Below the pieces are notes generated by a model. It was not told the DNA's origin. It did not search any database and saw only the letters and a program-made list of their open reading frames with translations. Made by a program: the position numbers and the translations under genes. A DNA stretch of 64,000 nt from NCBI GenBank assembly GCA_018268955.1, contig JAFDVO010000011.1, forward strand, positions 1 to 64,000, read 5' to 3'. Positions within the stretch are counted from its first letter, which is position 1. The number at the start of each line of letters is the position of its first letter. Of the stretch, positions 6,170 through 28,047 are shown piece by piece. Source of the stretch: Acidobacteriota bacterium. Its GTDB lineage: Bacteria; Acidobacteriota; Vicinamibacteria; Vicinamibacterales; CAVVIG01.

Positions 6170-6198
6170 TGTAAGATGTCTGCCTGACCGGTCACTCA
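6170..6198 (+). promoter_or_regulatory. ECF promoter of the sigma/anti-sigma operon (type A motif)
   Basis: TGTAAG at 6170-6175, 17 nt, CACTCA at 6193-6198, ending 58 nt before the sigma GTG. The same TGTAAG-N17-CAC layout precedes the TVP38, ynjB-like and TonB-receptor genes, and an N16 version precedes the thioredoxin gene. A matching site before the sigma gene itself suggests autoregulation, as is usual for ECF factors. Confidence 0.7.
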
Positions 6199-6256
6199 TC
6201 ATAAGCGAGCGACACGCGCCCCGGGGTTCGGACGACCTGAACCGTACAATGGGAGG

Positions 6257-6841
6257 GTGCCATTCGACAAACAGGTGCTACTGGAGCAACTCCGCGCGCG
6301 CAATTCGCAAGCGCTGCACGACGTGGTCGAGCAGCATGCCCGGCGACTGTACCGTTCGGCAAGGGCCATGGGATTTTCAGCCACAGAAGCGGACGATCTG
6401 TCACAGGAGGTGTTCGTGACCTTTCTGGAGACCCTCGACCGCTTCGAGGGTCGGTCGAGCGTCAGCACGTGGCTGTTCGGTATCTTGCATCACAAGGTGC
6501 AGGAGCGACGCCGGGTCGTTGTGCGCGACCAACGTGCCGATCCGATCGACGAGATCTTCGAGGCGTCCTTCGATGCCCACGGCTCCTGGACGAAGCCGCC
6601 CATCGCTGCCGATCGGCTTGCGGCGTCGCGTCAGGTCTCGGCGGCTCTCGCCGAATGCCTGGACGGCTTGCCGGATCAGCAGCGTGCCGTGTTTCACTTC
6701 AGGGAGGTGGAAGGATTGTCGACAGCGGAAGTCGGCGAACTGGTTGGCTGCACGACGAATCACGTCGGGGTGTTGTTCCACCGGGCCCGCACACGACTGC
6801 GCGGGTGCCTCGAGGGCAAGGGCTGGGGAGCGTCGCGATGA
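6257..6841 (+). CDS. ECF RNA polymerase sigma factor, block A
   Basis: 194 residues with the two-domain ECF layout. Region 2 is about residues 20-90 (ATEADDLSQEVFVTFLETLDRFEG, then VSTWLFGILHHKVQERRR). Region 4 is about 130-185 (CLDGLPDQQRAVFHFREVEGLSTAEVGELVGCTTNHVGVLFHRARTRLR). The GTG at 6257 is abutted directly by GGGAGG, too close for a normal ribosome-binding site, so the exact start is uncertain. It overlaps the downstream zinc-finger anti-sigma gene by ATGA. Five similar promoter sites at 6170, 10516, 10572, 18042 and 18098 make it the likely master regulator of 6.2-19.1 kb. Confidence 0.9.
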   Translation: MPFDKQVLLEQLRARNSQALHDVVEQHARRLYRSARAMGFSATEADDLSQEVFVTFLETLDRFEGRSSVSTWLFGILHHKVQERRRVVVRDQRADPIDEIFEASFDAHGSWTKPPIAADRLAASRQVSAALAECLDGLPDQQRAVFHFREVEGLSTAEVGELVGCTTNHVGVLFHRARTRLRGCLEGKGWGASR

Positions 6842-7071
6842 AGAGCTGCAAGGATGTGTCGTATCAGCTGTCGACCGGTGACCTGGCCCACACATCGCTG
6901 GTCGAACGCATCGGCGTGTGGCTGCACCTGGCCATGTGCCGGAACTGCCGGGCCTTCAGCCGCCAGCTCGGTGCAATGGCCAGAGCCGCTCGTGGCGCCG
7001 CGTCGGCGACCGAAGCGGAACCCCGCGAATCGTTCGAACGGGAGATCGTCGAGCGCCTGCGTCAGCGCTGA
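6838..7071 (+). CDS. Short zinc-finger anti-sigma factor
   Basis: 77 residues; its ATG overlaps the sigma stop (ATGA), the classic sigma/anti-sigma arrangement. The zinc-binding anti-sigma signature H-x3-C-x2-C is present as HLAMCRNC, with an earlier Cys in MKSCKDVSYQL. There is no transmembrane segment or sensor domain, so this is a soluble one-domain anti-sigma of the zf-HC2/ZAS type. Release would have to come through the zinc site (oxidation or metal exchange) rather than through proteolysis of a membrane protein. Its stop overlaps by 10 nt the 3' end of the convergent flavoprotein gene. Confidence 0.85.
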   Translation: MKSCKDVSYQLSTGDLAHTSLVERIGVWLHLAMCRNCRAFSRQLGAMARAARGAASATEAEPRESFEREIVERLRQR

Positions 7072-8192
7072 AACTGCGCCACGAAGCGCGTGTCGATCGT
7101 GTCCTTGAGCCAGCGGCACCAGCGCCCTCCGAACGCGAGGCCGTGCCACTCGCCGATCGCCTGACCGCCGCCGGCATTGAGCAGCTTCAGAAATGACCGC
7201 TGTGGTGTGAAGGATTGCAGCGGCCGCCCCTCCAGGCTCCGCCGCAGATTCTCGAGCAATACCGGTCCCTGACGCACCGCGTAGACGCCCGCCTTCGCAG
7301 CACGCTGCCCCTGGAGCGAGCCGGCATCACCAACCGCAAAAACACGTGAATCTCCGATGCTCTGCAACGTATCGGTGGTGGCCAGAAATCCGTCACCATC
7401 CTTCGGCAGGTCGATGACGTCCAGGACGGGTCGCGGAGAGGCTCCCGTTGCCAAGATGACAAGATCCGCCTCGACGACCGTGCGGTCCCCGACGTGAACG
7501 TGCTGGTCGGTGACCGACACAACGCGGCCGGCGAGGCGCGAGACGCCAGCGCGGTCGAGCGCTGCTGAAGCTCGACGAACTAAACCTGCGCCGCCGTCCG
7601 GCAGGATCTGTCCTTCGGACACCAGGGTGTACTCAGCCTCCCGACCGGTGGTCGCCTGCACGAATGACGGCAGGCACAAGGCGATCTCCACACCGGCGGC
7701 TCCTCCACCGACCACGGCGACACGGAGCGCGCCCTTTCCAGTTGGCGCCTGTGTCAGCGCGTGCCGCAGGCGAGCCAGAAACGTCTGCATCGGCTTGATG
7801 GCGATGACGTGTGCTCCAGCGTCGAACGCGATGTCGCCTGTGGACGGCTCGGAGCCGACCCCGACGGACAGCAGATCGAAGTGGACAGGTGGAGCCCCCG
7901 ACATCCGCAGCTCACGCGCCGATAGGTCCGCGTGCGTCACCTGTCCCACCACGAGGCGTGCACCGGCAGAGTCGCAGAGCGGCGCCAGCGGCACCTCCAT
8001 CGCGGCGGGCGGATAGTCGCCGGCCAGCGCGCCCGTCAACATGCCCGAATACGTGGCGACCGGGAAATCCGACACGCACGTCAGTGTGATGCCCGGTCGT
8101 GGCTGGTCCTGCCAGTGCCTGAGCACGTGCAGATGCGTGTGACCGGCGCCCAGCAGGACGATGGCGCGCGGGCGTGAGGGAGCGCGCTGCAT
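7062..8192 (-). CDS. FAD/NAD(P)-dependent oxidoreductase, type II NADH dehydrogenase-like (SelD-N-like family)
   Basis: 376 residues from the ATG at 8192, four bases after the upstream stop. FAD-binding GAGHTHLHVLRHW lies at the N-terminus; the second Rossmann motif VAVVGGGAAGVEIAL is near residue 165; the C-terminal FAD signature is DSRVFAVGDAG. The G-G/A-G-H-x-H-x-H-V-L-R start is the hallmark of the flavoprotein family found alone or fused to the N-terminus of selenophosphate synthetase SelD; no SelD is present here. Last gene of the operon TVP38 - MerA-like - this gene. Likely membrane-associated; substrate unknown. Confidence 0.8.
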   Translation of the reverse strand: MQRAPSRPRAIVLLGAGHTHLHVLRHWQDQPRPGITLTCVSDFPVATYSGMLTGALAGDYPPAAMEVPLAPLCDSAGARLVVGQVTHADLSARELRMSGAPPVHFDLLSVGVGSEPSTGDIAFDAGAHVIAIKPMQTFLARLRHALTQAPTGKGALRVAVVGGGAAGVEIALCLPSFVQATTGREAEYTLVSEGQILPDGGAGLVRRASAALDRAGVSRLAGRVVSVTDQHVHVGDRTVVEADLVILATGASPRPVLDVIDLPKDGDGFLATTDTLQSIGDSRVFAVGDAGSLQGQRAAKAGVYAVRQGPVLLENLRRSLEGRPLQSFTPQRSFLKLLNAGGGQAIGEWHGLAFGGRWCRWLKDTIDTRFVAQFQR

Positions 8193-8196
8193 GGTC

Positions 8197-9717
8197 TCAG
8201 CGGCGCCAGCGCAACCAGGCATCGAACAGCCGCCGCACGAACGGCGTGAGCCGGCCGCGATTCCAGGCATCGCCGAGCTTCTTCCAGGCCTCGCTCTGCG
8301 TGGGGTACGGATGGATGGTCTGCGCCAGCGTCGAAAGCGACAGACCGGCCGTCATGGCGAGGCTCATCTCCCCGATCATCTCACCCGCATGTGAGGCGAC
8401 GATGGTCGCCCCAAGGATGCGGCCCTTCGAGTCAGCATGGACGCGGGCGAAGCCCTCGCTCTGGCCGTCGAGGATGGCCCGGTCGTTCTCCGCAAGGGCC
8501 ACGGTCAGGGTCCGTACGTCGGTTCGCTTCCCAGCGTCTTCCGCGGTCATGCCCACGTGCGCGACTTCAGGATCGGTGTAGGTCGACCACGGGATGACCA
8601 GGGCGCTGGCTTTCTTGTGTCCCGAGAACAGCGCGTTCTGGAGGGCCACCCGCGCCAGGGCGTCGGCGGCGTGCGTGAACTTGTATGGCGACGCGATGTC
8701 GCCCACGGCAAAGACGCGCGGGTTGCTGGTACGCAGGCAATCGTCCACCGTCACGCCTGAACGGCTGGCGGTGATGCCCGCCCTCTCGAGGTCCAGTCCC
8801 TCCACGTTGGCGGCGCGTCCGGTGGCGACCAGGATGGCCTCGGCGTGGACGGCGGTCTCGCGCCCCTGCTGTTCCACGGTGACCACACGGACGTCACTGT
8901 CCGGGGCACGCTCGACGCGGATGATCCGTGCGTCGAGTCGCATCGCGATGCCTTCGCGGTCGAACGCATCGGTGACGACACGCGACGCATCGGCGTCTTC
9001 GCGCGGGAGGAGGCGAGGGGCGTCGCCGATCAGGGTGACGTCCGACCCGAACCGTCGGAATGCCTGCGCGAGTTCGCACCCGATCGGTCCGGCACCGACC
9101 ACAATGAGCCTTGCGGGCAGTTCGGTCAGTGAGAAAACTGACTCATTTGTGAGATACCCGGCCTCCGCGAGTCCGGGTATCGGCGGGACGGCTGCGCGAG
9201 CGCCGGTGGCCACAATGGATCGGGAGAACCGTAGCGTCGTGCCCTCCACGTCGAGGGCGTCTGGCGCCACGAAGTGCCCCTGTCCGAAGAACACGTCGAT
9301 ACCGAGTCCGGCCAGGCGAGCCACGGAATCGTTGCGTGCGATGTCCGCACGCAGTCGGCGTAACCGCGCCATGGCGGCGCCGAAGTCGGCCCGTACAGCT
9401 CCGGCATCGACCCCGAAGGCGGCGCCATGTCGCGCGTCGGCCACGGCCCGTGCCGCTCGGATAAGAGCCTTCGAGGGAACGCAGCCGTAGTTGAGGCAAT
9501 CGCCCCCGAGCGCATGCCGTTCGACAATCGCGACCTTCGCGCCGAGCCCCGCGGCGCCGACAGCTGAGACCAGCCCGGCGGTGCCTGCACCAATCACCAC
9601 CAGGTTGTACCGGCCCAATGGCGTCGGGTTCCGCCACGGCTGCGGGCGCACGCGATCCACGAGTTCCTGGTTGTACTGGTCGTTTGGTTCGAGGAGGGGT
9701 AAGCGGGACAGGTGCAT
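8197..9717 (-). CDS. Dihydrolipoamide dehydrogenase/mercuric reductase-like flavoprotein disulfide reductase
   Basis: 506 residues. GAGTAG (43-48) binds FAD; GGDCLNYGCVPSKAL gives the redox-active pair Cys74/Cys79; a second GAGPIGCEL binds NAD(P)H; the dimer interface carries the catalytic His-Glu signature HPYPTQSE. It lacks the C-terminal Cys-Cys pair of true MerA and any N-terminal HMA domain, so mercury reduction is unlikely. The extra N-terminal 35 residues (LLEPNDQYNQELV) are typical of MerA-like proteins encoded next to TVP38 proteins. Overlaps the TVP38 stop by one base (TGATG), so translation is coupled. It may reduce a periplasmic or membrane thiol carrier; this is inference. Confidence 0.85.
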   Translation of the reverse strand: MHLSRLPLLEPNDQYNQELVDRVRPQPWRNPTPLGRYNLVVIGAGTAGLVSAVGAAGLGAKVAIVERHALGGDCLNYGCVPSKALIRAARAVADARHGAAFGVDAGAVRADFGAAMARLRRLRADIARNDSVARLAGLGIDVFFGQGHFVAPDALDVEGTTLRFSRSIVATGARAAVPPIPGLAEAGYLTNESVFSLTELPARLIVVGAGPIGCELAQAFRRFGSDVTLIGDAPRLLPREDADASRVVTDAFDREGIAMRLDARIIRVERAPDSDVRVVTVEQQGRETAVHAEAILVATGRAANVEGLDLERAGITASRSGVTVDDCLRTSNPRVFAVGDIASPYKFTHAADALARVALQNALFSGHKKASALVIPWSTYTDPEVAHVGMTAEDAGKRTDVRTLTVALAENDRAILDGQSEGFARVHADSKGRILGATIVASHAGEMIGEMSLAMTAGLSLSTLAQTIHPYPTQSEAWKKLGDAWNRGRLTPFVRRLFDAWLRWRR

Positions 9718-10478
9718 CAGGACTTCCGTTCAGGTGACGCAGAAGACGTGGCTGACGAACCGAGCGCGAGTTCAGCTGCCAACGCACGGCGCGCCACCCG
9801 TGCGATGAACAGCGTGGCCGCGGCGGTGGCGCCGACACCGACCACCGACAGCACCAGGCGTGCGGTGGACTCCCGGGCTACGCTGTCTGTCATGGCCAGG
9901 TCGCGTACGAGGGATCCGAGATATACGTAGAGAGCTGTGCCTGGAAACATGCCGATGGCCGAGCCGAGGATGTAGTCGCGCAGCCGCACACGGGTCAGCC
10001 CGAGCGCGTAATTGAGCACGTTGAACGGGAAGAGTGGCGACAGGCGTAGCAACAGGACGATGCGGAAGCCGTGTTCGCCGACGGCGGCGTCCACGGCACG
10101 GAACCGTGGGTCACCCTCTATCCGCCTGGCGATCCAGCCTCGGGCGAGGGTACGGCCGAGGACGAACGACATCGTGGCGGCGGCGACGCTGACGGGCGAG
10201 ACCAGGAGCGTGCCGAGTACGGGGCCGTATGCGAAGCCGGCGCCCGCCGTGAGGACCGCACCGGGCAACATCAGGACAGCGGCCGCAATGTAGACCGTAG
10301 CGTAGATCAGCGCACCGACGGCACCTGCGCCCTTCAGCCATCCCGCCAGGGCCCCGGCCCACTGGCTCAGCGGCCAGACGAACGCCGCTTCCAGCGCGAG
10401 CGACGCCACGACAATCGCGCCACCAATACCCAGCCATCGGCGCGTCCGTCGGCCGGTTCCTTTTGTCCCGTGACTCAT
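9717..10478 (-). CDS. TVP38/TMEM64 (DedA-like) membrane protein, YdjX/YdjZ-like
   Basis: 253 residues from the ATG at 10478. There are about five to six hydrophobic segments. The SNARE-associated/VTT core contains LPGAVLTAGAGFAYGPVLGTLL, the F-x-L-G-R-x-x-A-R segment (SFVLGRTLARGWIARRI) and RLSPLFPFNVLNYALGLTRV-x2-RDY, all diagnostic of TVP38. Family members are thought to scramble or transport lipids or anions. In E. coli, ydjX and ydjZ lie just upstream of ynjA-F, as here with a divergent ynj-like operon. First gene of a minus-strand operon behind a type A ECF promoter. Confidence 0.85.
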   Translation of the reverse strand: MSHGTKGTGRRTRRWLGIGGAIVVASLALEAAFVWPLSQWAGALAGWLKGAGAVGALIYATVYIAAAVLMLPGAVLTAGAGFAYGPVLGTLLVSPVSVAAATMSFVLGRTLARGWIARRIEGDPRFRAVDAAVGEHGFRIVLLLRLSPLFPFNVLNYALGLTRVRLRDYILGSAIGMFPGTALYVYLGSLVRDLAMTDSVARESTARLVLSVVGVGATAAATLFIARVARRALAAELALGSSATSSASPERKS

Positions 10479-10515
10479 GCTTTCGGTCGTGGTCGCGCGG
10501 CTGTACACCGCAGAA

Positions 10516-10544
10516 TGAGTGCTCGCTCGCCGTGATTTCTTACA
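10516..10544 (-). promoter_or_regulatory. ECF promoter (type A) of the TVP38-flavoprotein operon
   Basis: Minus strand TGTAAG (10544-10539), 17 nt, CACTCA (10521-10516). It is back to back with the plus-strand promoter at 10572-10600, so the two -35 elements appear as TTTCTTACA...TGTAAGAAA. The predicted start site lies about 30 nt before the TVP38 ATG. Confidence 0.65.
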
Positions 10545-10571
10545 GTCCCGACGTGCGCTGGGCCGTGAGGG

Positions 10572-10600
10572 TGTAAGAAACCGCAGTTCTGCCGCACTAG
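10572..10600 (+). promoter_or_regulatory. ECF promoter (type A) of the ynj-like operon
   Basis: TGTAAG (10572-10577), 17 nt, CACTAG (10595-10600). The substrate-binding protein ATG is at 10606, only 5 nt after the -10 element, which predicts a leaderless or almost leaderless mRNA. Confidence 0.6.
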
Positions 10601-10605
10601 CCGGA

Positions 10606-11868
10606 ATGCACCTGTTCCCTCGAGTCGGCCGCGGCGGCCTGCTGCGCGCAGCGGCAGCCGTCGTCGCGCTGGCGCTCGCCGGTGGCGCCTGCCGGGAGAA
10701 CCCGCGCGCCGCGTCGGCTCAGGAGTTGGCTGAGGGCCCGTGGAGCACCCTCGTGGCGCAGGCGCGCGGCACCACGGTCATCTGGCGCATGTGGCGAGGC
10801 GACCCGGCCATCAACGCGTACGTCGATAAGTGGGTGGCCCCGCGCATGCAAGAACAGTTCGGCGTAGAGGTGCAGGCTGTGGACAGCCAGGGGCCGGAGA
10901 TGGTCAACACCCTCGTGACCGAACGCGAGGCGCGGGGCGGGACAGCCGGCACGACCAGCCTGCTCTGGATCAACGGCGAGACGTTCGCGCAACTGCAGCA
11001 AGAGCATTTGCTGGCCGGTCCCTGGACGATGCGACTTCCCAACGCCGCGCTCGTCGATGCGGCGTCGCCCATAATCACTCGCGACTTCGAACAGGATCCG
11101 ACCGGATACGAGTCGCCCTGGGGGATGGTGCAGTTCGCGTTGATCTATGACGTCGAGCGTACGCCGAATCCGCCGACTACGATACCGGCGCTGGCCGCCT
11201 GGATTCGCGCGCACCCCGGTCGCTTCACCCACGACCAGAGCTTTACCGGCCTCACATTTCTGAAGGGGTTGATGTACGGGCTCGGCGGTGGCGTCGAACG
11301 TTTCCAGCACGGGTTCGACGAGGCACGATACGTCCAGGGGCGCGACGCGCTGTTCTCATGGCTGCAGTCCGTGCGACCCTACTTCTGGCGGGAGGGCACC
11401 ACGTACCCGCCTGACGTCGCCGCCATGCACCGGCTGTTCGCGAACGGTGAGATCGACTTCACGATGTCGAATAACCAGAACGAGGTGGTCACGAAGGTGC
11501 GCCAGGGGATCCTGCCGCCCACGTCCCGGGCAGTGTTGCTGGACGAGGGCACGATCGCGAATGCCCACTATGTCGGCGTTCCCTTCAACGCCCCGAATCC
11601 GGCGGGCGCGATGGTGCTGGCCAACTTCCTGCTCTCGCCCGAGGCGCAGCTGGAAAAGCAGCGTGGCGAGGTGTGGGGCGACGGCACGGTGCTGAACGTG
11701 CCGGCGCTGCCCGAGCCGTGGCCCGCGCGCTTCGCCGATGTAGCGACTGACGCCGCCGCGCTGCCGTACGACGTGCTCGCCGCGCACGCACGTCCCGAAG
11801 TGCATCCGCAGTACCACACACACCTGCTCGACGACTGGCGCCGCGTCATGCGCGCCGACGCTCGATGA
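10606..11868 (+). CDS. YnjB-like ABC transporter substrate-binding lipoprotein
   Basis: 420 residues from the ATG at 10606. The N-terminus is a lipoprotein signal: basic start, hydrophobic stretch VVALALAGGAC with the lipobox Cys. The mature protein (TVIWRMWRGDPAINAYVDKWVAPRM, SLLWINGETFAQLQ, GMVQFALIYD, DFTMSNNQNEVV, NPAGAMVLANFLLSPEAQ) matches the YnjB branch of extracellular solute-binding proteins. The substrate of YnjB is not known. It overlaps the first permease by ATGA and heads a five-gene operon. No Shine-Dalgarno precedes the start, which fits a leaderless transcript. Confidence 0.8.
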   Translation: MHLFPRVGRGGLLRAAAAVVALALAGGACRENPRAASAQELAEGPWSTLVAQARGTTVIWRMWRGDPAINAYVDKWVAPRMQEQFGVEVQAVDSQGPEMVNTLVTEREARGGTAGTTSLLWINGETFAQLQQEHLLAGPWTMRLPNAALVDAASPIITRDFEQDPTGYESPWGMVQFALIYDVERTPNPPTTIPALAAWIRAHPGRFTHDQSFTGLTFLKGLMYGLGGGVERFQHGFDEARYVQGRDALFSWLQSVRPYFWREGTTYPPDVAAMHRLFANGEIDFTMSNNQNEVVTKVRQGILPPTSRAVLLDEGTIANAHYVGVPFNAPNPAGAMVLANFLLSPEAQLEKQRGEVWGDGTVLNVPALPEPWPARFADVATDAAALPYDVLAAHARPEVHPQYHTHLLDDWRRVMRADAR

Positions 11869-12704
11869 CGCGGCGGAACGTGGCGCCGCTCGCGGCCGTG
11901 CTCCTGATCGCGTCGCCGGTGATCGTCGGGGTCGCCTACACGATTCTTGCGGCCCTCGGCTTGCGCGGTGCTGGCGCCTCGGAACTGACCGTCCGGCACG
12001 TCGCAGCCGCGCTCGGGGGGTGGGACACCTGGCGGGGCGTTGGCTGGACGCTCGCCACGGCTGCCGTTGCCACCGCCGTCGCCGCTGCCGCGGCCTTCAC
12101 CGTGGCGCTGCGGGTACAGCAGAGTCCTCTCGGCCGTCTTCTCGCCGTGTTGCCGCTGGCAGTGCCACACGTAGCGGCCGCTCTGGCGGCGCTGTTGCTC
12201 CTCTCGCAGAGCGGATGGGTGTCCAGGCTCACGCATGCGGCAGGGCTCACGCCGACACCAGCCGACTTTCCCGCGCTTGTCTACGACCGGTTCGGCGTGT
12301 CGCTCGTCCTCGCATTTGCGTGGAAGGAGTTCGCGTACCTGGTGCTCACCGCCGTCGCGGTCTTGGGCACCCTCGACCGTGCATCAGACGAGGTGGCCCG
12401 AACGCTCGGTGCGAGCGCGCGACAGGTGTTCTGGCGAATTACGTGGCCGCAGCTCTGGCGAGGAACGTCGCCGGCGGTGATCGCCGCGTTCGCCTTTCTC
12501 ATCGGCCAGTACGAGATGCCGGCGCTGCTCGCGCCCAGCACTCCAACGGCGCTACCGCTGCTTATCTACGAGCGCAGTGTCGATCCCAACCTCCTGCGAC
12601 GGGGCGAAGCCTACGTGGTGGCCCTGCTGGCCCTCACGCTCTGCGCGGGGCTGATCGCGGCGCACGGGATCTGGCGGCGTCGCCTGCCGGGAGTGACGCG
12701 GTGA
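11865..12704 (+). CDS. ABC transporter permease (N-half YnjC-like)
   Basis: 279 residues with about six transmembrane helices. The cytoplasmic EAA loop that docks the ATPase is visible as DEVARTLGASARQVFWRITWPQLWRG, about 60% into the protein. In E. coli YnjC is one fused protein of two permease halves; here the halves are separate genes, and this is the first. ATGA overlap with the substrate-binding protein and GTGA overlap with the second permease indicate tight translational coupling. Confidence 0.85.
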   Translation: MTRRNVAPLAAVLLIASPVIVGVAYTILAALGLRGAGASELTVRHVAAALGGWDTWRGVGWTLATAAVATAVAAAAAFTVALRVQQSPLGRLLAVLPLAVPHVAAALAALLLLSQSGWVSRLTHAAGLTPTPADFPALVYDRFGVSLVLAFAWKEFAYLVLTAVAVLGTLDRASDEVARTLGASARQVFWRITWPQLWRGTSPAVIAAFAFLIGQYEMPALLAPSTPTALPLLIYERSVDPNLLRRGEAYVVALLALTLCAGLIAAHGIWRRRLPGVTR

Positions 12705-13483
12705 CGCATGCGACGCATCGATTCACACTGCTCGCATTGGCCGGTTGGGTCTTGACGCCGATCGTCGTGCTCGCACTGCGCGCCGTGTCTCTTTCGTGGC
12801 GATACCCGCAGATCATGCCGATGGCCACGGCGTCTGGCGGCGCCTTCGAGGCTCTTGCGGATCCCCGCCTGGTCGCTGCGGCCGCCACCAGTTTCTGGCT
12901 CGCGCTGGCAACGGGAGTGCTCGGCACCGTTCTCGGCTTTGTCACCGCGAGGCTGGTGACGCGGGCGAGCGGACGGCTGCAGCAGTTGACCTGGCTCGGC
13001 GCGCTCTTCCTGGTCGTGGCACCGCCCCTTGCGTCTGGTGTCGGGCTACAGGTGGTGATGCTGTCACTCGGATTTGGCGGCACCGTGCTCGGTGTGCTCC
13101 TCGCACACCTGGTTCCGGCGACCGGCTACCTGACACTGTTTGCCGCGGGCATCCTGGGCAGCATGCAGTCAGGCATCGAGGACGAGGCACGGACCCTTGG
13201 GGCGTCGCGCCTGCAGGTGTGGACCCGCGTGCTCCTGCCGCAACTGGCACCGCGTTTCGCCGAGAGCGTCGTGCTCGGGGCGCTCATCTCGTGGGGGCAG
13301 CTCGCATTGACTCTACTCGTCGGTGGCGGAGTCGTGAGAACCTTGCCGGTCGAATTGCTCTCGCTAGTCCGTTCGGGCAACGATCAGGCGGGTGCGCTGG
13401 CGGCTCTCGTGCTCAGCCTGCCTCCTCTGCTTGGCCTCGGGCTTCTCGTGCGAGCCACGCGTCGGACAGGAGCCGCCCTGTGA
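12701..13483 (+). CDS. ABC transporter permease (C-half YnjC-like)
   Basis: 260 residues from the GTG at 12701, chosen for the GTGA overlap with the first permease. It has about six hydrophobic segments and the EAA motif EDEARTLGASRLQVWTRVLLPQLAP. It pairs with the first permease to form the transmembrane pathway. The stop overlaps the GTG of the ATPase gene. Nothing is truncated compared with other single-domain permeases of the thiamine/iron/spermidine-type importer group. Confidence 0.85.
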   Translation: MTHATHRFTLLALAGWVLTPIVVLALRAVSLSWRYPQIMPMATASGGAFEALADPRLVAAAATSFWLALATGVLGTVLGFVTARLVTRASGRLQQLTWLGALFLVVAPPLASGVGLQVVMLSLGFGGTVLGVLLAHLVPATGYLTLFAAGILGSMQSGIEDEARTLGASRLQVWTRVLLPQLAPRFAESVVLGALISWGQLALTLLVGGGVVRTLPVELLSLVRSGNDQAGALAALVLSLPPLLGLGLLVRATRRTGAAL

Positions 13484-14535
13484 ACACGCCGCGCGGGCTG
13501 GTGGTCACGGGTGCGCACGTGTCGTTCGGCGCACGTCCGGGGCTGCACGGCGTGGATCTGTCGGTGGCGCGTGGCGAGCGGGTCGCCCTCCTCGGACCTT
13601 CGGGTTGTGGCAAGACGTCGCTGCTCCGCGCCGTTGCGGGCCTGCAGCCGCTAACCTCGGGTGCGATCGCGGTCGATGGCACAGAGGTGACAGGGGTATT
13701 GCCGGAGCAGCGCGGCATTGTCTACATGCACCAGAGCCCCTCGCTCTTCGACCACCTGAGCGTCATCGACAACGTCGGCTTTCCGCTCGAAGTACGCGGC
13801 ACGCCGCGGAGGCAGGCGCGCGAACGGGCCGCAGCACTGCTAGATCGCGTGCAGCTTGCCAGGCTCGCGCACCGCGCGTCGGATACGCTCAGTGGCGGTC
13901 AACGCCACCGTGTAGCACTGGCGCGTGCGCTCGCGGCGAACCCGGCGGTGCTGCTCCTCGATGAGCCGTTCGCGGCGCTTGACCCCGAGTTGCGCGCCGA
14001 GGTTCGCGAGACCGTGCTCGATCTCCTGGGCACCGCCGAGTGGGCGCCGGCGGTGGTCGTCGTGACTCACGACGTGGACGAAGCCGCAGCGATGGCGCAC
14101 CGCGTCGCGATCCTCCTCGACGGTCGTCTCGCTCAGGTGGCGTCGCCCGAACATCTGCTGAATGCCCCAGTGTCGGTGGCGGTCGCGCGCCTCCTCGGAC
14201 TCCCGAACGTGCTGACGGGCATTCGTGCGGCCGACGGCAGGGTGTCCTTCGCGCTCGACCGCTGTGATGCTCGTGGCGCCGTTGGTCAAGTCGCGGTGGT
14301 GGTTCGTGTCAATGCCGTCAGGTTCGGACCACCCGGTGCCGGGACTCCCGCGCGCGTAGTGTCGGTGCAGCACCGGTTGGCAGGGACCATCGTGCGGGTA
14401 GACGTCGCAGGCGAGCAGGTGACCGGCATCCCGGCTCCGGGTCTTTCCCTCGCCGCAGGCGACCGTGTGGGCGTGCTCGTCGATCCGGGCGCGGTGCACG
14501 TGCTCGATGAGGCGTTGGGAGGACGCGATGTTTGA
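13480..14535 (+). CDS. ABC transporter ATP-binding protein (YnjD-like)
   Basis: 351 residues from the GTG at 13480 (GTGA overlap). Walker A GPSGCGKT, Q-loop (HQSPSLFDHL), signature LSGGQRHR, Walker B VLLLDEPF and switch His in VVTHDVDE are all intact. After about residue 235 there is an extra C-terminal domain of about 110 residues that looks like a TOBE-type OB fold (ARVVSVQHRLAGTIVRVDVAGEQV). E. coli YnjD is shorter and lacks such a domain, so this is closer to the PotA/FbpC layout. It energises the two permeases. Confidence 0.88.
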   Translation: MNTPRGLVVTGAHVSFGARPGLHGVDLSVARGERVALLGPSGCGKTSLLRAVAGLQPLTSGAIAVDGTEVTGVLPEQRGIVYMHQSPSLFDHLSVIDNVGFPLEVRGTPRRQARERAAALLDRVQLARLAHRASDTLSGGQRHRVALARALAANPAVLLLDEPFAALDPELRAEVRETVLDLLGTAEWAPAVVVVTHDVDEAAAMAHRVAILLDGRLAQVASPEHLLNAPVSVAVARLLGLPNVLTGIRAADGRVSFALDRCDARGAVGQVAVVVRVNAVRFGPPGAGTPARVVSVQHRLAGTIVRVDVAGEQVTGIPAPGLSLAAGDRVGVLVDPGAVHVLDEALGGRDV

Positions 14536-15139
14536 TCGCTATCTCCGGCCGCTCAAGGACCGCGCGCTCACGCCACTTGCACATCTCGCCGGTCCCCGGC
14601 TCTCCCCGAATGTGGTTACCTGGGCAGCCTTCGTCGTCGGCATGGGAAGTGCGGCGGCGCCATTCGAGGGGGCCAGAGGAATCGGGCTGCTGCTCTGGTT
14701 CCTGAACCGCGTGCTCGACGGACTCGATGGCACGCAGGCTCGCACGCATGCCCGAACCACGGCGTACGGCGGCTATCTGGACATCGTGCTCGACTTCGTC
14801 GTGTATGCGGCGGTGCCGATTGGGCTTGCCGTTGGCGCCGGATCGCCATCGCCGCTGATGCTCAGCGCGCTGCTGATGCTGGCGTCGTTCTACGTCAACG
14901 CCGCATCGTGGATGTACCTCGCGGCGATTCTCGAGCAGCGGCGCGAGGGCGCAAGCGCGACCGGCGAAGCGACCACCATCACCATGCCGTCTGGACTCGT
15001 CGGCGGCACGGAAACAGTGGTCTTCTACGTCGCGTTCTTTCTCTGGCCATCCTACCTGCGGACGCTGTTCACGGTCATGACCGTCCTGGTGATGCTGACG
15101 GTAGTGCAGCGCATGGCCTGGGCCAGGCGTCACCTTTGA
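14528..15139 (+). CDS. CDP-alcohol phosphatidyltransferase (YnjF-like)
   Basis: 203 residues, ATG at 14528, overlapping the ATPase end by 8 nt. The CDP-alcohol phosphatidyltransferase signature D-G-x2-A-R-x8-G-x3-D-x3-D is complete (DGTQARTHARTTAYGGYLDIVLD). About five to six membrane helices follow the usual pattern. The enzyme joins a CDP-linked lipid to an alcohol head group, or in the YnjF branch acts on an unknown acceptor. The same neighbour occurs at the end of the E. coli ynj operon, so its link to the transporter is conserved across distant phyla. No rhodanese (YnjE) is present. Confidence 0.85.
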   Translation: MFDRYLRPLKDRALTPLAHLAGPRLSPNVVTWAAFVVGMGSAAAPFEGARGIGLLLWFLNRVLDGLDGTQARTHARTTAYGGYLDIVLDFVVYAAVPIGLAVGAGSPSPLMLSALLMLASFYVNAASWMYLAAILEQRREGASATGEATTITMPSGLVGGTETVVFYVAFFLWPSYLRTLFTVMTVLVMLTVVQRMAWARRHL

Positions 15140-15145
15140 CTCCGT

Positions 15146-17965
15146 TCAGAACCGAATCCTCGCCGCGAACTGCATCTGGCGCGCCGGCCCCGCTGCCGTA
15201 GGCTGGAACGCGAGCGTGCCATTCTCGTCGGGCCTCACGCCGCTCGCCCCGTAGTTGAAGAAGCCGGAGAAGTTCGTCCGGTTGAAGAGGTTGAAGATGT
15301 CCGCGCGTAGCTGGATCCGCGTGACACCGACCGGCAGTTCGCGTGCGAGCCCAAGGTCGAACTGCGCGAAGCCCGCGGTGCGCTCGCTGTTGCGACCCAC
15401 ACCCGCCGGGCGGTCGTTGAAGATGGTGTCGCCGTTGTTGTCGAGCCCGGTCGTGACGTTGAGGGGCTGGCCGCTCGAGAGGAAGAGCACCGGCACGACA
15501 TCGAGCAGGTGCGGCACCCGCACCAGGCCGTTCACGGCCAGAATGTGGCGCCGATCGTTCAGGCTCGGCCCGAGTTCGGCGTCCGGGACTCGGGCGTCCA
15601 TCGCGCGAAAATTGATGTCGTCCGTGTCGTTCTCGATGCGAGAGAGGGTGTAGGCGACGTCGAAAGCCACGCCGTGACCGAGTGTGCGGCGTGCGTTGAC
15701 GTAGAGACCGTCAAACCGGCTGTGACCACTCGACTGATCCTGCTCGATCAACCTGAAGCCACCCGCCGCGGGCACCAGCGGGCGCGTAGCATCGGCGGCA
15801 GCAACAGTCCGGAGGCTGGCAGCGGCCATGGATGCCGGTGCATTGATGTCGACGCGGCGGATCAGATGCCGACCACGGGCGTAAACGTAGTCGAGGCTGA
15901 CCGAAAAGCCACCAGGGGCCGTCAGCACGTAGCCTGCGGAGGCCTGCGCGGTCGAGGGGCTCTGCAGGTTCGGGTCGAACACCTGGACGTTGCGCGGCGG
16001 CAACCGCGAGAGTGGCACGTTCTGGTAGGCGGTTCGCGGCAGTTGAGCCGGGAATGTTGGTGGCGCGAACGGCGTGCCCGGCGCGAACGTCACCGACACG
16101 GCCCCGCCGTTCGGATCGTTGAAGATCGTGTCCGAATACACGGCGAAGGGTATGCGCTCGTAGAAGACCCCGTATCCGCCGCGCAGCTGATGGCGGGTGC
16201 TGCCCCTGGGCGTCCAACTCAGGCCCACACGGGGTGCGATGTTGTTCATGTCGCCGTCAGCGACCGGCGTGTGCGTCACCGAGTCGTAGTCCCACCGTGC
16301 GCCAAGCGTCACGCTGAGGTCGGTGCCGAGGCGAAAGGCGTCTTCGGCGAACGCCGCGCTCAGGGTCTGCGCGCTGTTCACCACGGGATTGACGAAGCTT
16401 TGCGAGTAGGAGAGGACGCTGATGTCGCGTGGAAGGTCCGCCAGCGTCAGGAACGGCCCGCTCGGGCGGAGGGTCCGCCCCTGGAGGTCGACGACGTAGG
16501 CACCGCGGGCGCCGGGCCCCGAGCGGATGGTGAAATCACCGCGCAGGACATCGACCCCCGCACGCAGTGTGTGCCGACCCGCCTGCCGCGTGTAGACGTC
16601 GCGCAGTTGCAGGTCGGTCTCGGTCCAGAAGAAGTCGTCCGACACGCCGCCGATCGTCGCAAGCGTCGCGCCCCGATCCGTCACGACCACCCGGGGACCG
16701 CCATCGAGGGAGGCCCAGTTTGCGCGAAGCTGTCCCACCTGGACGCCCACTTCATTGAAGCCGACCCCTGCCGTGGTCCGATGTGTGAACGCCGCGAATT
16801 GGTTGCGGTAGTTGACCGAGAGTCCGGCCGACGGCAGCGTCAGGCCGCCGACGAAGCCGGCATCGCCGTCATGCGTGTAGTCCGAGAGGTGCGCGCGCAC
16901 GGTCGACACGTTCGCGTCGTTCCAGCGCACGTCCGTTTTCACCAGACCCGTCTGGTTGCGGAAGGCGGTGGAGGCCAGACCGGCAGCGAGCGGCGAGGTC
17001 AAGATGGCGTCCTGCGATTCCCGGGTCACCTCCAGGTCGCCGAAGTAGAACAGGCGGTCGCGCACCAGGGCGCCGCCAAGCGAACCGCCCGCCTGTTGAC
17101 GCTGGAAGCTGTCGTCGATGACCTGCCCGTTCGCGTCTTTCGGCGCGAAGTAGTTCGGCGAGTCAACCACCGCACCCGGCCGGACCACGTAGAACGCGTC
17201 GCCCCATTGGCGGTTTCCGCCGCTTCGCGTCGTGACGGAAAAGACGCCGTTGCCAGTCCGTCCGTATTCAGGCGCGTACGCGTTGACGCGCACCTGCAGG
17301 TCGTCGGTCGACCCCAGCGTGACCGGCAGCTTGGGGCCGCCGAGGAACAGGTCGGTATTGTCGAAGCCGTCTACCGTATAGTTCGCGGTGAGCGACGAGG
17401 CCCCATTGATGGTGAGCCGCGGTGCAAGGTTGTAGAAGCCTCGGGCAGGAGCTGCGCCAGGCACGAGGTACGCGGACGCAATGAGGTCGCGTCCGTTGTT
17501 CGGCAGTCGGTCCAACTGCTCGCGGTTCAGACGACCCCCGAGTGCAGGCGACGAGGCGCGGACGCCGAGGCCGCTGTCGGCGCTCACCGACACTGACTCG
17601 CTGACGCCTGGCACCTGCAGCATCAGATCGACCAGACGTCGCTCACCGCTCGCGAGGGGGGCGAGTGGTGTCCTCACCGGCGCAAAGCCGTCGGCCACGG
17701 CTTCTACCGTGAGGTCGACCGCCGTGAGCACTCCCTGGAACTCGTAACCGCCGTCAGGTGCGGTAACCACGTCTCGACGAATGGCTACATCCGTCCCTGA
17801 CAGCACGACCCGGGCGCCGGCCACCGCCGCTCCGGAGGGGTCGCGCACGACGCCGGTGACCACGGAACTCGATTGCGCGGATATCGAGGCCTCCGCTATC
17901 GCGACCAGCAAAAGGAAAGTCCCCCGCAGTACAACCCCGCTCCGTCGGTATCGCGACCACGTCAC
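15146..17965 (-). CDS. TonB-dependent receptor, carboxypeptidase-regulatory-like (Oar-type)
   Basis: 939 residues from the GTG at 17965, preceded by GGAGGG at 8-nt spacing; upstream ATGs would place the promoter inside the gene. A signal peptide (VVLRGTFLLLVAIAEASISAQ) is followed by a carboxypeptidase-regulatory-like beta-sandwich (VVTGVVRDPSGAAVAGARVVLSG). Next come a plug domain (LPNNGRDLIASAYLVPGAAP, LTINGASSLTANYTVDG) and a long beta-barrel ending FNLFNRTNFSGFFNYGASG...FAARIRF, with the usual C-terminal Phe. Such receptors import large or rare ligands through the outer membrane. Convergent with the ynj-like operon (6-nt gap), it is probably the outer-membrane partner of that transporter. 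Confidence 0.85.
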   Translation of the reverse strand: MTWSRYRRSGVVLRGTFLLLVAIAEASISAQSSSVVTGVVRDPSGAAVAGARVVLSGTDVAIRRDVVTAPDGGYEFQGVLTAVDLTVEAVADGFAPVRTPLAPLASGERRLVDLMLQVPGVSESVSVSADSGLGVRASSPALGGRLNREQLDRLPNNGRDLIASAYLVPGAAPARGFYNLAPRLTINGASSLTANYTVDGFDNTDLFLGGPKLPVTLGSTDDLQVRVNAYAPEYGRTGNGVFSVTTRSGGNRQWGDAFYVVRPGAVVDSPNYFAPKDANGQVIDDSFQRQQAGGSLGGALVRDRLFYFGDLEVTRESQDAILTSPLAAGLASTAFRNQTGLVKTDVRWNDANVSTVRAHLSDYTHDGDAGFVGGLTLPSAGLSVNYRNQFAAFTHRTTAGVGFNEVGVQVGQLRANWASLDGGPRVVVTDRGATLATIGGVSDDFFWTETDLQLRDVYTRQAGRHTLRAGVDVLRGDFTIRSGPGARGAYVVDLQGRTLRPSGPFLTLADLPRDISVLSYSQSFVNPVVNSAQTLSAAFAEDAFRLGTDLSVTLGARWDYDSVTHTPVADGDMNNIAPRVGLSWTPRGSTRHQLRGGYGVFYERIPFAVYSDTIFNDPNGGAVSVTFAPGTPFAPPTFPAQLPRTAYQNVPLSRLPPRNVQVFDPNLQSPSTAQASAGYVLTAPGGFSVSLDYVYARGRHLIRRVDINAPASMAAASLRTVAAADATRPLVPAAGGFRLIEQDQSSGHSRFDGLYVNARRTLGHGVAFDVAYTLSRIENDTDDINFRAMDARVPDAELGPSLNDRRHILAVNGLVRVPHLLDVVPVLFLSSGQPLNVTTGLDNNGDTIFNDRPAGVGRNSERTAGFAQFDLGLARELPVGVTRIQLRADIFNLFNRTNFSGFFNYGASGVRPDENGTLAFQPTAAGPARQMQFAARIRF

Positions 17966-18041
17966 CTCAGCTACCCTCCGGCGGGCGCGACGCCGAAGCC
18001 CGGGACAACCCCCTGCATCTCGTGCGCGTACCGCTGGATCG

Positions 18042-18070
18042 TGGGTGTCGCAGGCACCCAGATTCTTACA
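18042..18070 (-). promoter_or_regulatory. ECF promoter (type A) of the TonB-dependent receptor
   Basis: Minus strand TGTAAG (18070-18065), 17 nt, CACCCA (18047-18042). The leader to the GTG at 17965 would be about 70 nt. It is back to back with the thioredoxin-gene promoter, with the same 39-bp span between outer -35 edges as at 10539-10577. Confidence 0.65.
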
Positions 18071-18097
18071 GCGGCGGAACCACTCGGCCGCCGACTC

Positions 18098-18125
18098 TGT
18101 AAGGTGGCTCACATTTCCTCACTTC
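18098..18125 (+). promoter_or_regulatory. ECF promoter (type A variant) of the TlpA-like gene
   Basis: TGTAAG (18098-18103), 16 nt, CACTTC (18120-18125). The spacer is one base shorter than in the other four sites, so this is the weakest member of the set. It lies 38 nt before the ATG at 18164. Confidence 0.5.
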
Positions 18126-19489: not shown

Positions 19490-21247
19490 TCATTTCGCGG
19501 GCTCGCTTGCAGTGACAGGCCTGAGGACGACGTAGGTGGGCAACCCGATGGCGTGAAAGCGATCCATGACGGAACGGGCCGGTTCCTCATCTGGCTGCTC
19601 TGCCTGGAACTTCACCTTCACGTAGCCTGACAACGCCGCAATGACGGCGGGATCCTCGAAGGTCGTCTCGTCCATCGTCAGGCAGTTCTTGCACCACGTG
19701 GCCCACAGGTCAACGAGCACCGGCTTGCGCTCGCGCGTGGCCGCGGCCAGCCCTTCTGACATCGATGCGTGCCATCCGGAGTTCACCTTGGCCTCGACGC
19801 TGGCGGTCACCTGATCGGCATTGACCCACCGGTCGGCAAGCAGCCCATAGGCCACGTAGCCGTAGTACGCCGCAGTGGACAGGATCACGACGCCAAAGCC
19901 GTGCTTGACGCGGGTCATCCACGCGCCGGGCCGCGGGAGGGCGGCGATCCCCGCACCCGCAATCGGCCACGGCAAGGCCATCCCGAGACCGAGCAGAAAG
20001 GGTAGGGCCAGCGCAACGGTGTGTCCCGACGCGTACAGGCTGGTCGAGAACAGCACAACCTGGATCACGACGGGGGCCACGCAGGCGCCGGCCAGCAGTG
20101 CGGCAACGGCCCCCATCGAGAACGCCAGCACGAATGTGCCCTTACTTTGGGACGCACTGAAGCGACTCGACAGTTTCGACAGGTCGATCGTCACCATGTC
20201 GAACATAGCCAGGCCCAGCACGATGAACAGCGCGGCGATGCCGACGTTGAACCACGGCGAGGCATTGAGCGTACCGAAGGTGCCCGCCGTGAGGATGACG
20301 ATGAGGCCGAGGACGCCGTAGACCGCAGCCATGGCGGCGCCGTAGGCCGCGCCGAGAAATAGTCCGCGGCGGCGCGAGCCCGCCTGGCTACCGGCGCCGA
20401 TGATCGCAAGATTGATCGGAATCATCGGCAGGACGCATGGCGTCAGGTTCAGCGCCAGCCCTCCGAGGACGACGAGCAGCACGATCGCGAGCGGTCCCCG
20501 CCCGTCGAACCAGCCAACCTCACGCACTCCCGCTTCGGCGTTGTGCAGAAAGCCGATGAATTCGCCGCTGTCGAGATACCCACCGGTCGTGGCGGCCACG
20601 TCGAAGCCCGCAAGCGCCGCGAGTGGATCCTCGGCGGACGCCGTTCGCTCAACCGGTTCAGCGGCCCTGGCCCCCTCTTCCCACTCACCGTGTGCCGTGC
20701 CGAAGTGAACGCGGTCCAGCTCGACGTTCACGTCGCGGGTGATGGGCGTCACCGACGGTACCACTCGGACCGTCCAGGAGACAGGCGTCGTGGTCGGGGC
20801 ATAACACATGGCTTCGTCGCAGGTCTGGTATCGCAGCCGCCCGGGGATGATCAACTCGCCAGGCGTGGCACTTGCTGCGACGTTCAGGCGCACGCCGATC
20901 GTGAATTGGTGCTCGAAGACGGCGAGCGGCTGGGTCGAACCCTGCTGTCGCAGGTCCGATGCCACAGGAAAGACGATCTCTTCAACCGTCACCCCGCTGG
21001 GCGGACTGACGGTCACCACCGTCGGGATGAACGCTGGATCACGGGGAGCGTTCGACTGGACGTGCAGGCCGTCGGCCAGCGTCACGGCCACGCCGACCTT
21101 GAGGTCGTCTCCCGCGTGCACCGAGTCACTCTCGGCGAGGATCCGGACGTCCGCTGCCCGTGGGCGGACCTGACCCGAGGTCGGGGTTGCCTGCAACAGC
21201 GCCGCAGCACCAGTCACCAGCACCAGGACGGATCGGAATCGAATCAC
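19490..21247 (-). CDS. dsbD: Thiol:disulfide interchange protein DsbD
   Basis: 585 residues from the GTG at 21247, which has AGGTG at good spacing; a GTG at 21256 would add three residues but abuts the AGG. A signal peptide is followed by a periplasmic DsbD-alpha-like domain with the pair CDEAMC, then a membrane domain of eight helices with the two conserved Cys (LNLTPCVLPMIP and LLAGACVAPVVIQ), and a C-terminal thioredoxin domain with WATWCKNC. DsbD moves electrons from cytoplasmic thioredoxin to periplasmic disulfides, including those needed for copper and cytochrome assembly. It carries its own type B ECF promoter, so it can be expressed apart from the upstream bufferin genes. Confidence 0.92.
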   Translation of the reverse strand: MIRFRSVLVLVTGAAALLQATPTSGQVRPRAADVRILAESDSVHAGDDLKVGVAVTLADGLHVQSNAPRDPAFIPTVVTVSPPSGVTVEEIVFPVASDLRQQGSTQPLAVFEHQFTIGVRLNVAASATPGELIIPGRLRYQTCDEAMCYAPTTTPVSWTVRVVPSVTPITRDVNVELDRVHFGTAHGEWEEGARAAEPVERTASAEDPLAALAGFDVAATTGGYLDSGEFIGFLHNAEAGVREVGWFDGRGPLAIVLLVVLGGLALNLTPCVLPMIPINLAIIGAGSQAGSRRRGLFLGAAYGAAMAAVYGVLGLIVILTAGTFGTLNASPWFNVGIAALFIVLGLAMFDMVTIDLSKLSSRFSASQSKGTFVLAFSMGAVAALLAGACVAPVVIQVVLFSTSLYASGHTVALALPFLLGLGMALPWPIAGAGIAALPRPGAWMTRVKHGFGVVILSTAAYYGYVAYGLLADRWVNADQVTASVEAKVNSGWHASMSEGLAAATRERKPVLVDLWATWCKNCLTMDETTFEDPAVIAALSGYVKVKFQAEQPDEEPARSVMDRFHAIGLPTYVVLRPVTASEPAK

Positions 21248-21294
21248 GCGTGTCACCTGTCATGGCAGGGCCGCGTCCATTCGCGGCTACGGGT

Positions 21295-21333: not shown

Positions 21334-22365
21334 TCAGGGGTCGCGAGAGAACGCAGGAAATGTGAAATCGAACACCTGCCCCTTCGGCTCGGCCGGCTTG
21401 AACTTCATCTCAAGGCTCAGGCTGATCGGCAGCTGGGCTCCCGGAATTACTACCTGCAGCGTGTTGCCGTCGCGGCTGCCACCTGGCGTGAGGCTGAGGG
21501 CCTGGCCGGTCGGAGTACCGTTGGTATCGGTCTGCCGAACGCTCCCCGTGAAGCCCGCCGCACGCAGCGGCCGCGTCATGTCGTCATAAAAGTAGACGCG
21601 GAAGATGTTCGGCGGAACGAACGTGCCTTCGAGGTGATGCCACTGATCGGACGACATGAACAGCAACCCTCCATGCCGTGGGTTGTGATCGCCGTGCGGA
21701 CGACGCTCGAACAACTTGCTACGTGGTGAGCCGTCCGGGCATACCCCCGGTGTCAGTTCGCGAACCGACTTGTGCGCGTCACATGTGAAGTAGAGCGCCG
21801 CAGTGATCGGCACCATCTCGCTCCGGTCGATCGGACACACGCCAGGCGCGTCGCGGATGAACATCTGCACGCGCAGGCACGAGTAGGCCGTGACGAGCCG
21901 AATGGGCACCAGCGCCGCGCCGGACTTCGGGCAGCGCCCAGGTTTGTCGTCGATCACGGTCTCCTCGCCTGGCGACGGACAGACATAAGAGAGGTCCGGC
22001 AGGTCGGGCACCACTGGCGCTGCCGCCCTGACGGGCGCCCGTGGCGGCGCCGCGATCCGCACGTTGAATAGCGTGGTGAAGTTGCCGGCACGAACCGTCG
22101 CCGTGATGCGGTCGCCCTTCTTCAGGCGGACCAGCACGTCGGCTGGCTCGAGCCGGTAGCTCATCGTCATCGCCGCCATCCAGCCGGGCACGTCGTCGTT
22201 GGCGACGCTGGCCGTCCGCTGTGCCGTGTCGACGGCCTCCACCGTGCCGCGCAAGCTGAACTCCTGTGTCGACGCCTGTGCCTGCGCGGGGACCGCAGGC
22301 ATGACCCACAGGAGCAGTGCGTGCGCGAACATCGCGGCCAATCCGGCGCGTTCTATCAGGAACAT
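21334..22365 (-). CDS. Secreted multi-domain metal-binding protein (CusF-like plus Cys-rich repeats)
   Basis: 343 residues from the ATG at 22365, with GGAG upstream. After a signal peptide comes a copper-binding CusF-like module ([15 protein letters not shown], then [16 protein letters not shown] with a Trp/Met-rich site). Three heavy-metal-binding-like Cys units follow (YVCPSP...GRCPKSG, YSCLRVQ...[19 protein letters not shown]...GVCPDG). The last part ([24 protein letters not shown]) is His/Met-rich and then forms a beta-sandwich-like domain. Probable periplasmic copper handling. Stop-to-start contact with the DUF3179 gene (6 nt overlap) shows they belong to one operon. Confidence 0.75.
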
Positions 22366-22370: not shown

Positions 22371-23843
22371 TCACTCCAGTAGCAGGGTGTCGGGAAACTG
22401 CGCGAACCATCCGAACCAGAACGCGCGCTGGGCAGAGACCCGAGGAGCGAACTCGCCAGCGGTGGTACCCTCAGGCACCAGCGCATCCTCGGTCAGGCGC
22501 CATCGGCGGCCGCGGGCGTCCACTATCCGTGCCGCGTTCGCCTGCTTCGGCCACGCGTCGGCTACGGCAAACACCCGGTTGGCGCCACTCTGATCCGACA
22601 CGACGACGTAGTGCCGTTCGCCTGAGGAGAATGCGTACACCGCGTGCTTCTTCAGGAGCCGGACGTCGATGGCAACTGGCAGGGTCCCGCCCGATCCGCC
22701 GGGCAGGCGCATGACGAGGACTTCATCCTTCAGCGCGAGTCGACGGTCGGTCCGCGACACCTGGAACATCAGCTGGTCCGACGCGAAGTAGTCGCGGTAG
22801 GCAGCGCCTTCCGAGTAGTCCCGGTTGTACCCCGTGTCGAGCGACAACACGGTGGTCTCGGGGTGCGCGGTCTTCCACGCCTTCCACGTCGTGGTGACGA
22901 CCGGCCTCGTGCGGAGGGACAGGCTGGTCCCGGCGAGCGCTCCGACGACCGGCTTGCCTTCGAACGTGGACCACAGCGAATTCGTCTCTTCGTCGAACAT
23001 GAGCTTGTTGGACTGGTACAGCAGCCCACTGGTGCCGAAGTGAAACGACCGGCCACCTGCCGTGCTTTCGTAGGGCATGACTGTGCCGCACAGCGTGCAG
23101 TAGACGATGGCGAGGTCCACGCCGCCGAGGCGGTCGAGCGCCAGCTCGTGCCACGCGAGAATCCGTCGAGGGTAAGCGCGGGCCTCGCCGTTCACAAAAA
23201 GCCCGAACACCACGTTCGAGTCCTTCATGAAGGAGGCGTGGTTGGCAGCGACGTACCTGGGCTGCCGGAGCGGCGGAATACCGTTCACACGCACTCCGCC
23301 CCAGTCGATTTCGTCGAGCCGAATCAGTGCGCGGACGCCGTCCGGGAAGAAGGCGCCAAGCCGGGGATCGAGCTGCGAGTAGACCACCCGCTTCAACGCG
23401 GCAAAGTCCGGATGCGGCTCATACGGGCTCCGCCACAGCCAGGCCCGCCAGCGGTCCAGGTCGTCCCCGAACTTCTGTCCGGTCCGCTGCTCGAGAAACT
23501 GGAGTAGTCGTCGCCGGGCCGGCGAGCCGGGATCGCCGAGCGGTGAGATCGGCTCGCCGGCGCGCCCCGCGCCGCCCGCATCGGCGGCGGACGCTGAAGC
23601 GGCAATGTCCACTGGGCGGGCCTGCCTGGGCGCGCGCATGAAGCGCGCCAGTTCAATCAGCAGCCCGGCGTAGCCGTTGCGCCATTCGGCCTGAATGGTC
23701 TGCAAGGCCGGTTCACTGGTTCGCCGATCCTCTGATGCAGCATCGACGAACCGCGCTATCGGCACGGGCGCCTGCGCGCGCCCCGACGCCAGCGGGCCCG
23801 CGAGGGTCAGCGTCACGACGATGCCTGATACACGTTTCATCAT
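22371..23843 (-). CDS. DUF3179 domain-containing secreted protein
   Basis: 490 residues from the tandem ATGs at 23843/23840. A signal peptide ([16 protein letters not shown]) is followed by a helical N-terminal region of about 130 residues. The DUF3179 core is recognisable by [44 protein letters not shown] and [13 protein letters not shown]. The C-T-L-C-G-T motif and nearby His residues suggest a metal site; the activity of the family is not established. Its place between DoxX and the CusF-like gene ties it to periplasmic metal or redox homeostasis. Confidence 0.8.
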
Positions 23844-28041: not shown

Positions 28042-28047
28042 CCCGCG

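Follow-up and report, generated by a model that had tools for sequence, protein, structure and literature searches.

A compact predicted ECF sigma factor regulon with a bufferin operon in an acidobacterial genome, and a putative promoter within the sigma gene of its relatives

RESULTS AND DISCUSSION

The window, i.e. the whole 64 000 nt stretch of DNA that we analysed (C2:1-64000; source genome of 4.77 Mb in 58 contigs), very probably contains a compact and mostly self-contained regulon, in which the ECF sigma factor encoded at 6257-6841 and its ZAS anti-sigma factor would act at five promoters, i.e. 6170+, 10544-, 10572+, 18070- and 26378- (Table 1). The signal would be copper or a linked thiol/oxidative stress, and the circuit of relatives appears to be wired otherwise. 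Judged by sequence evidence the regulon is real, and it supplies an acidobacterial ECF family that is still uncharacterised with a promoter code that is defined and can be tested. It also connects a second phylum, in which the target set is larger, with the control of bufferins by an ECF/ZAS pair, and puts genes to which no role has been given (those of TVP38, the ynjB-like importer, the SelD-type flavoprotein and DUF3179) in a probable copper/thiol stress response.

Table 1. Predicted promoters and genes of the regulon in the window
Feature	Position	Strand	Evidence
Promoter TGTAAG-N17-CACTCA before sigma/anti-sigma operon	6170..6198	+	matrix 20.7, strict match
ECF sigma factor, 194 aa, regions 2 and 4	6257..6841	+	PF04542, PF08281
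Small cytoplasmic zinc-finger ZAS-type anti-sigma factor, 77 aa	6838..7071	+	NF052368, Cys4, H-x3-C-x2-C
SelD-N-terminal-type pyridine nucleotide-disulfide oxidoreductase	7062..8192	-	TIGR03169
MerA/lipoamide-dehydrogenase-like flavoprotein (PRK06370 type)	8197..9717	-	profile
TVP38/VTT-domain membrane protein	9717..10478	-	PF09335
Promoter TGTAAG-N17-CACTCATT before TVP38	10514..10544	-	matrix 30.9
Promoter TGTAAG-N17-CACTAG before ynjB, moderate match	10572..10600	+	matrix 16.7
ynjB-like lipoprotein substrate-binding protein	10606..11868	+	NF008633
Two ABC permeases, ABC ATPase, CDP-alcohol phosphatidyltransferase	11865..15139	+	
TonB-dependent-receptor-like (Oar type) outer-membrane protein	15146..17965	-	PF13620, PF25183
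Promoter TGTAAG-N17-CACCCA before outer-membrane receptor, moderate match	18042..18070	-	matrix 22.7
Originally predicted fifth site TGTAAG-N16-CACTTC before TlpA	18098..18125	+	unsupported, matrix 0.5
DsbD-like thiol:disulfide interchange protein, probable end of bufferin operon	19490..21256	-	
CusF-like and heavy-metal-binding-domain periplasmic protein	21334..22365	-	
DUF3179 protein	22371..23840	-	
DoxX membrane protein	23888..24334	-	Pfam
bufC, DUF2063 partner protein	24358..25134	-	Pfam
bufB, MNIO enzyme	25121..25993	-	PF05114
bufA, bufferin precursor (DUF2282)	26022..26288	-	Pfam
Sixth promoter TGTAAT-N17-CACTCACT before bufA	26348..26378	-	matrix 31.3, highest in window

Promoter sites in the window

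The sigma factor consists of regions 2 and 4 only, adjoins its anti-sigma factor and scores 102.1 bits against TIGR02943 (Sig70_famx1), which is below the curated cut-off of 162.2 and leaves it outside that family. The anti-sigma factor reaches 53.1 bits against NF052368 (cut-off 50) and carries both the H-x3-C-x2-C motif and Cys4 (MKSC...HLAMCRNC). A common promoter motif stands upstream of several transcription units and co-occurs with the sigma gene in other genomes.

The original prediction listed five TGTAAG-CAC sites, i.e. 6170+, 10544-, 10572+, 18070- and 18098+, all of which were found in place, with spacers of 17, 17, 17, 17 and 16 nt, respectively (16-17 nt predicted), and with both divergent pairs spanning 39 bp as described (10539-10577 and 18065-18103). 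Each site is directed at a gene start, the distance from CAC to the start being 64, 43, 11, 82 and 44 nt in the same order. The hexamer TGTAAG by itself is not enriched, since it occurs six times in the window with 4.3 expected; TGTAAG-N14..19-CAC occurs exactly five times with 0.56 expected, and none of 100 shuffles reached five. Genome-wide, the specificity expected of the loose pattern TGTAAG-N16/17-CAC did not materialize: there are 13 matches (five here) against 25 for the reversed control, and the eight matches elsewhere have chance-level scores and lie mostly within long open frames. As the reversed control was no less frequent, this pattern was dropped as a genome-wide test, and specificity therefore had to be judged from other genomes.

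When the window was scored with a matrix of 20 sites from other genomes, none of them from the window, the top five positions were 26378-, 10544-, 18070-, 6170+ and 10572+ (31.3 to 16.7; Table 1), followed by a next-best position at 7.2, and simulated windows gave about 0.13 sites scoring at least 16 by chance per window. Four of the five originally listed promoters are therefore supported. The remaining one, 18098+, scores no better than chance TGTAAG matches, and no site scoring at least 14 precedes the TlpA gene of another genome (G044). The strict form TGTAAK-N17-CACTNA has only three matches in the whole 4.77-Mb genome, i.e. 6170+, 10544- and 26378-, all within 20.2 kb. The last of these had been overlooked because its -35 element reads TGTAAT. 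The idea that a single promoter precedes every unit from the sigma gene to 19142 thus fails for TlpA and is weaker for ynjB and the TonB receptor, whose sites (10572+ and 18070-) have imperfect -10 elements, but otherwise stands. Given the overlooked promoter, the failure at TlpA and the support from other genomes, the one-regulon reading was mostly right but too narrow, as it omitted the bufferin operon.

TVP38 and the receptor probably start at 10478 and about 17965, respectively, i.e. downstream of the starts of their longest ORFs, and since the ATG of ynjB is only 11 nt from the CAC, its mRNA is probably leaderless or nearly so. The TlpA-like gene (18164-19142, +) is frameshifted near 18850, with its thioredoxin-fold start and its C-terminal part (ORF 18852-19142) in different frames, which reflects either an assembly error or a broken gene. 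For the equal 39-bp spans of the divergent pairs we considered both a shared operator and a duplication, and rejected them: the 27-bp middles show no likeness by inspection, and the gap measures 19 bp in a divergent pair of G147 and 9 bp in one of G096, so that the equal spacing is probably a coincidence.

The bufferin operon

Behind 26378- the genes for DUF2282, MNIO, DUF2063 and DoxX are consecutive and all four products score above the Pfam cut-offs, as in a bufferin 1 cluster. From DoxX the series continues on the same strand through the DUF3179, CusF/heavy-metal-binding and DsbD-like genes with gaps of at most 77 nt. Bufferins chelate copper and aid growth under copper stress (PMC12452194). 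Of five sigma-positive genomes, three (G000, G129 and G147) have the promoter at equal distance before bufA and two (G064 and G065) have a bufA without the motif, and none of seven scored sigma-negative genomes has it there. In G129 and G147, bufA bears the motif divergently from the orthologue of the sigma gene at 6257. The bufferin-to-DsbD operon (26378 to 19490, minus) would best explain the biology of the regulon and points to periplasmic copper/thiol stress, although we infer the copper signal from the target genes only.

Further upstream, the reading frame at 27609-28124 (-) encodes a small Cys-containing periplasmic protein that by eye resembles motif-led ones of G140, G046 and G065; the motif is absent here.

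Distribution of the motif and the sigma factor

Among 193 genomes of the class we found 10 sigma orthologues (42-64 % identity), well separated from other ECF sigma factors. Next to these orthologues a stricter version of the motif, TGTAA(G/T)-N17-CACTCACT, turns up again and in many cases points at a divergent gene instead of the sigma gene; phylum-wide sampling likewise placed the motif next to sigma orthologues. All 11 sigma-positive related genomes contain TGTAAK-N17-CACTNA (27 matches in about 50 Mb; reversed control 9), vs 2 of the 22 sigma-negative ones from the class (two matches in about 103 Mb; reversed control 8). Close ynjB orthologues in G068 and G069, where no sigma orthologue was found, lack the site. 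Scanning genome contigs with the sigma alignment brought up hardly anything but distant ECF sigma factors, and searches of plasmids yielded no close relative of either the sigma or the anti-sigma factor. Apart from the one before TlpA, the window sites are strongly supported by the comparison across genomes as putative promoters of the sigma factor encoded at 6257.

By eye, from translations without profiles, motif-led genes in relatives resemble those of small periplasmic Cys, DUF302-like, YceI-like, DUF3179-like and ArsM-like proteins, and thioredoxins, also named by eye, occur behind the motif as well. A parallel island is present in G147, a member of another family, with the promoter in front of bufABC-doxX, of a series of thioredoxin, CcdA-like and SelD-type flavoprotein genes, and of thioredoxin-sigma-anti-sigma, and with TVP38- and MerA-like genes close by. 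Another ECF sigma factor of this genome, related to the first and paired with a small anti-sigma factor of its own (G147:C167:47.2-48.3 kb), is likewise preceded by the motif (L205 12229 (-), score 19.8), which suggests cross-talk or a cascade.

A putative promoter inside the sigma gene of relatives

In many orthologues of the phylum-wide sample the motif lies within the sigma gene, in frame and 99-105 nt before the stop, where it occupies codons of region 4.2, i.e. the region reading the -35 element (TGT AAG AT. ... xxC ACT AAC), and is oriented toward the anti-sigma gene just downstream. By hand tally, the Cys codon at the site is TGT in 17/17 genes and two other conserved Cys positions mix TGT and TGC, and the Thr codon is ACT in 16/18 vs roughly 1/9 elsewhere in the same genes. 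Where Cys is replaced by Ser, Gly or Arg, GTAA(G/T) is still kept (AGT, GGT, CGT). When synonymous codons were redrawn from the usage of each gene itself, the Fisher p was 1e-14 in a less redundant set of 20 genes that includes the two without the site. Across all columns and frames of the alignment (17 genes; window and G044 excluded) the site was the sole outlier of 528 positions (Fisher p about 5e-16), with a mean score of 19.8, next-best -8.1 and a median p of 0.68. Because the genes have ancestry in common and are thus not fully independent, the exact p values are not to be trusted, unlike the contrast of the site with the other 527 positions, which is trustworthy.

The window and G044, i.e. 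the two genomes with an own-strand site directly before the sigma gene, have lost the intragenic site, and G147 combines a weakened intragenic site with an own-strand site upstream of its thioredoxin-sigma operon. It is therefore rather likely that the DNA of region 4.2 holds the sigma factor's own promoter, TGTAA(G/T)-N17-CACT, aimed at the anti-sigma gene for a negative feedback through this gene only, and that lineages such as that of the window lost it and instead have a promoter before the whole sigma/anti-sigma operon. In most relatives, the upstream promoter would face a divergent target and the intragenic copy would probably drive the anti-sigma gene, an arrangement that autoregulation of the whole operon may have replaced in the window lineage. 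Such a feedback promoter would superimpose coding and regulatory information, a reading we consider reasonably probable. If confirmed, it would clearly exemplify both a regulatory site that is retained within coding DNA despite synonymous drift and a feedback loop whose wiring has changed between relatives. Judging by title or abstract, none of the open papers returned by a literature search on ECF sigma factors, anti-sigma factors and intragenic promoters describes such a site.

A thin comparison with Proteobacteria covered three loci, two of them readable, one of which scores 21.1. The intragenic site may exist outside Acidobacteriota: L254, a TIGR02943 member above the cut-off (class of G545), has TGTAAGGTTCTCGGCGTGAGTACGACTCACC in region 4.2 with a score of 21.1.

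Proposed circuit and alternatives

Going by what is established for ECF systems, the cytoplasmic ZAS anti-sigma factor (6838-7071), whose gene is co-transcribed with that of the sigma factor, would hold the latter until stress, i.e. excess copper or a linked thiol/oxidative stress, alters its zinc site, and the freed sigma factor would direct RNA polymerase to TGTAA(G/T)-N17-CACT(C)A promoters. At 6170+ it would drive its own operon, combining positive feedback with a co-made inhibitor, while 10544- would serve TVP38 and the two flavoproteins, 10572+ the ynjB-like ABC importer and the CDP-alcohol transferase, 18070- the outer-membrane receptor, and 26378- the bufferin cluster through DsbD. The output would comprise a periplasmic copper-binding RiPP, metal-binding proteins and disulfide-reducing enzymes. 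An open literature search returned no paper treating both TVP38 and an ECF sigma factor.

How far this regulon extends depends on the weaker sites. If only 6170+, 10544- and 26378-, the sole strict matches in the genome, were promoters of the sigma factor, the importer and the receptor would lie outside the regulon and the ynjB, receptor and TlpA sites would be chance or weak matches, in line with their scores (16.7, 22.7 and 0.5) and with the TlpA gene of G044 lacking a site. We consider this unlikely, as 10572+ and 18070- are intergenic, aimed at gene starts and have the exact 17-nt spacer, with only about 0.13 sites of such a score (at least 16) expected. It is even more improbable that control of the bufferin operon belongs instead to the second ECF sigma/zinc-finger pair. 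This pair (sigma 27568-27032 and zinc-finger anti-sigma-like protein 27031-26405, minus) is directly upstream on the same strand and ends 27 nt before the bufferin promoter, but the site at 26378 fits the motif that accompanies orthologues of the 6257 sigma factor, and it is from such an orthologue that bufA of G129 and G147 diverges with its motif.

As to the signal, the five-promoter regulon might mainly answer oxidative or thiol stress (peroxide, hypochlorite, disulfide) rather than copper, with the bufferin as one arm. Such a signal would fit the window's DsbD and flavoprotein disulfide reductases, as well as the thioredoxins and DUF302-like or YceI-like proteins seen by eye behind the motif in relatives, and msrAB is under sigmaE control in Neisseria (PMC3240639). 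On the other hand, the bufferins and the CusF/heavy-metal-binding protein indicate copper (PMC12452194), and Neisseria sigmaE was not induced by the oxidants tried (PMC2893595), which makes a mainly oxidative signal conceivable but somewhat doubtful.

Comparison with known systems

Compared with the at least five transcription units here, which include the ABC importer, the receptor, TVP38 and the flavoproteins, Neisseria sigmaE controls one operon plus msrAB. Within that operon, NMB2141-2143 are presumably bufferin genes. In architecture, Neisseria sigmaE/MseR is nevertheless the nearest characterised system: N. meningitidis sigmaE (NMB2144) and MseR (NMB2145) are likewise an autoregulated ECF sigma factor with a small cytoplasmic ZAS anti-sigma factor (Cys4 and ZAS cysteines), and the operon NMB2140-2145 also includes a DoxX-like gene and unknown proteins (PMC2893595, PMC3240639). 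Both the ZAS cysteines and Cys4 of MseR are essential (PMC2893595). The Neisseria -35 element GTMAGBWTT agrees with TGTAAG(A/G)(A/T)TT of our matrix, while the -10 element is in the same register but differs in sequence (CGTCTAAH there, PMC2893595; CACTCA here), 18/20 training sites of our matrix reading CACTCACT or nearly so.

Two other systems are functional parallels. In Cupriavidus metallidurans, the RpoQ/RsqA pair also lies beside a copper- and gold-induced operon, the divergent gigPABT, but RsqA is predicted to be membrane-bound, the RpoQ dependence of gig is putative and the gene set here is wider (PMC10304878). Acinetobacter SigAb has a small direct regulon, is copper-induced and is required for copper resistance, but differs in its promoter (GTCAAC/CGTT), its anti-sigma factors (AabA and AabB) and its targets (PMC12153292).

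Bufferin 1 clusters often contain sigma and anti-sigma genes, as here (PMC12452194). The anti-sigma factor of the Caulobacter-type (SigF) clusters is NrsF, whereas the one in the window is a short ZAS protein (NF052368). In a sigma-negative genome (G061, locus L251), TGTAACC...GCGAA lies about 237 nt before the EKCYG codon of a DUF2282 bufferin gene. This sequence presumably recalls a SigF-type promoter rather than the TGTAAK-CACT motif.
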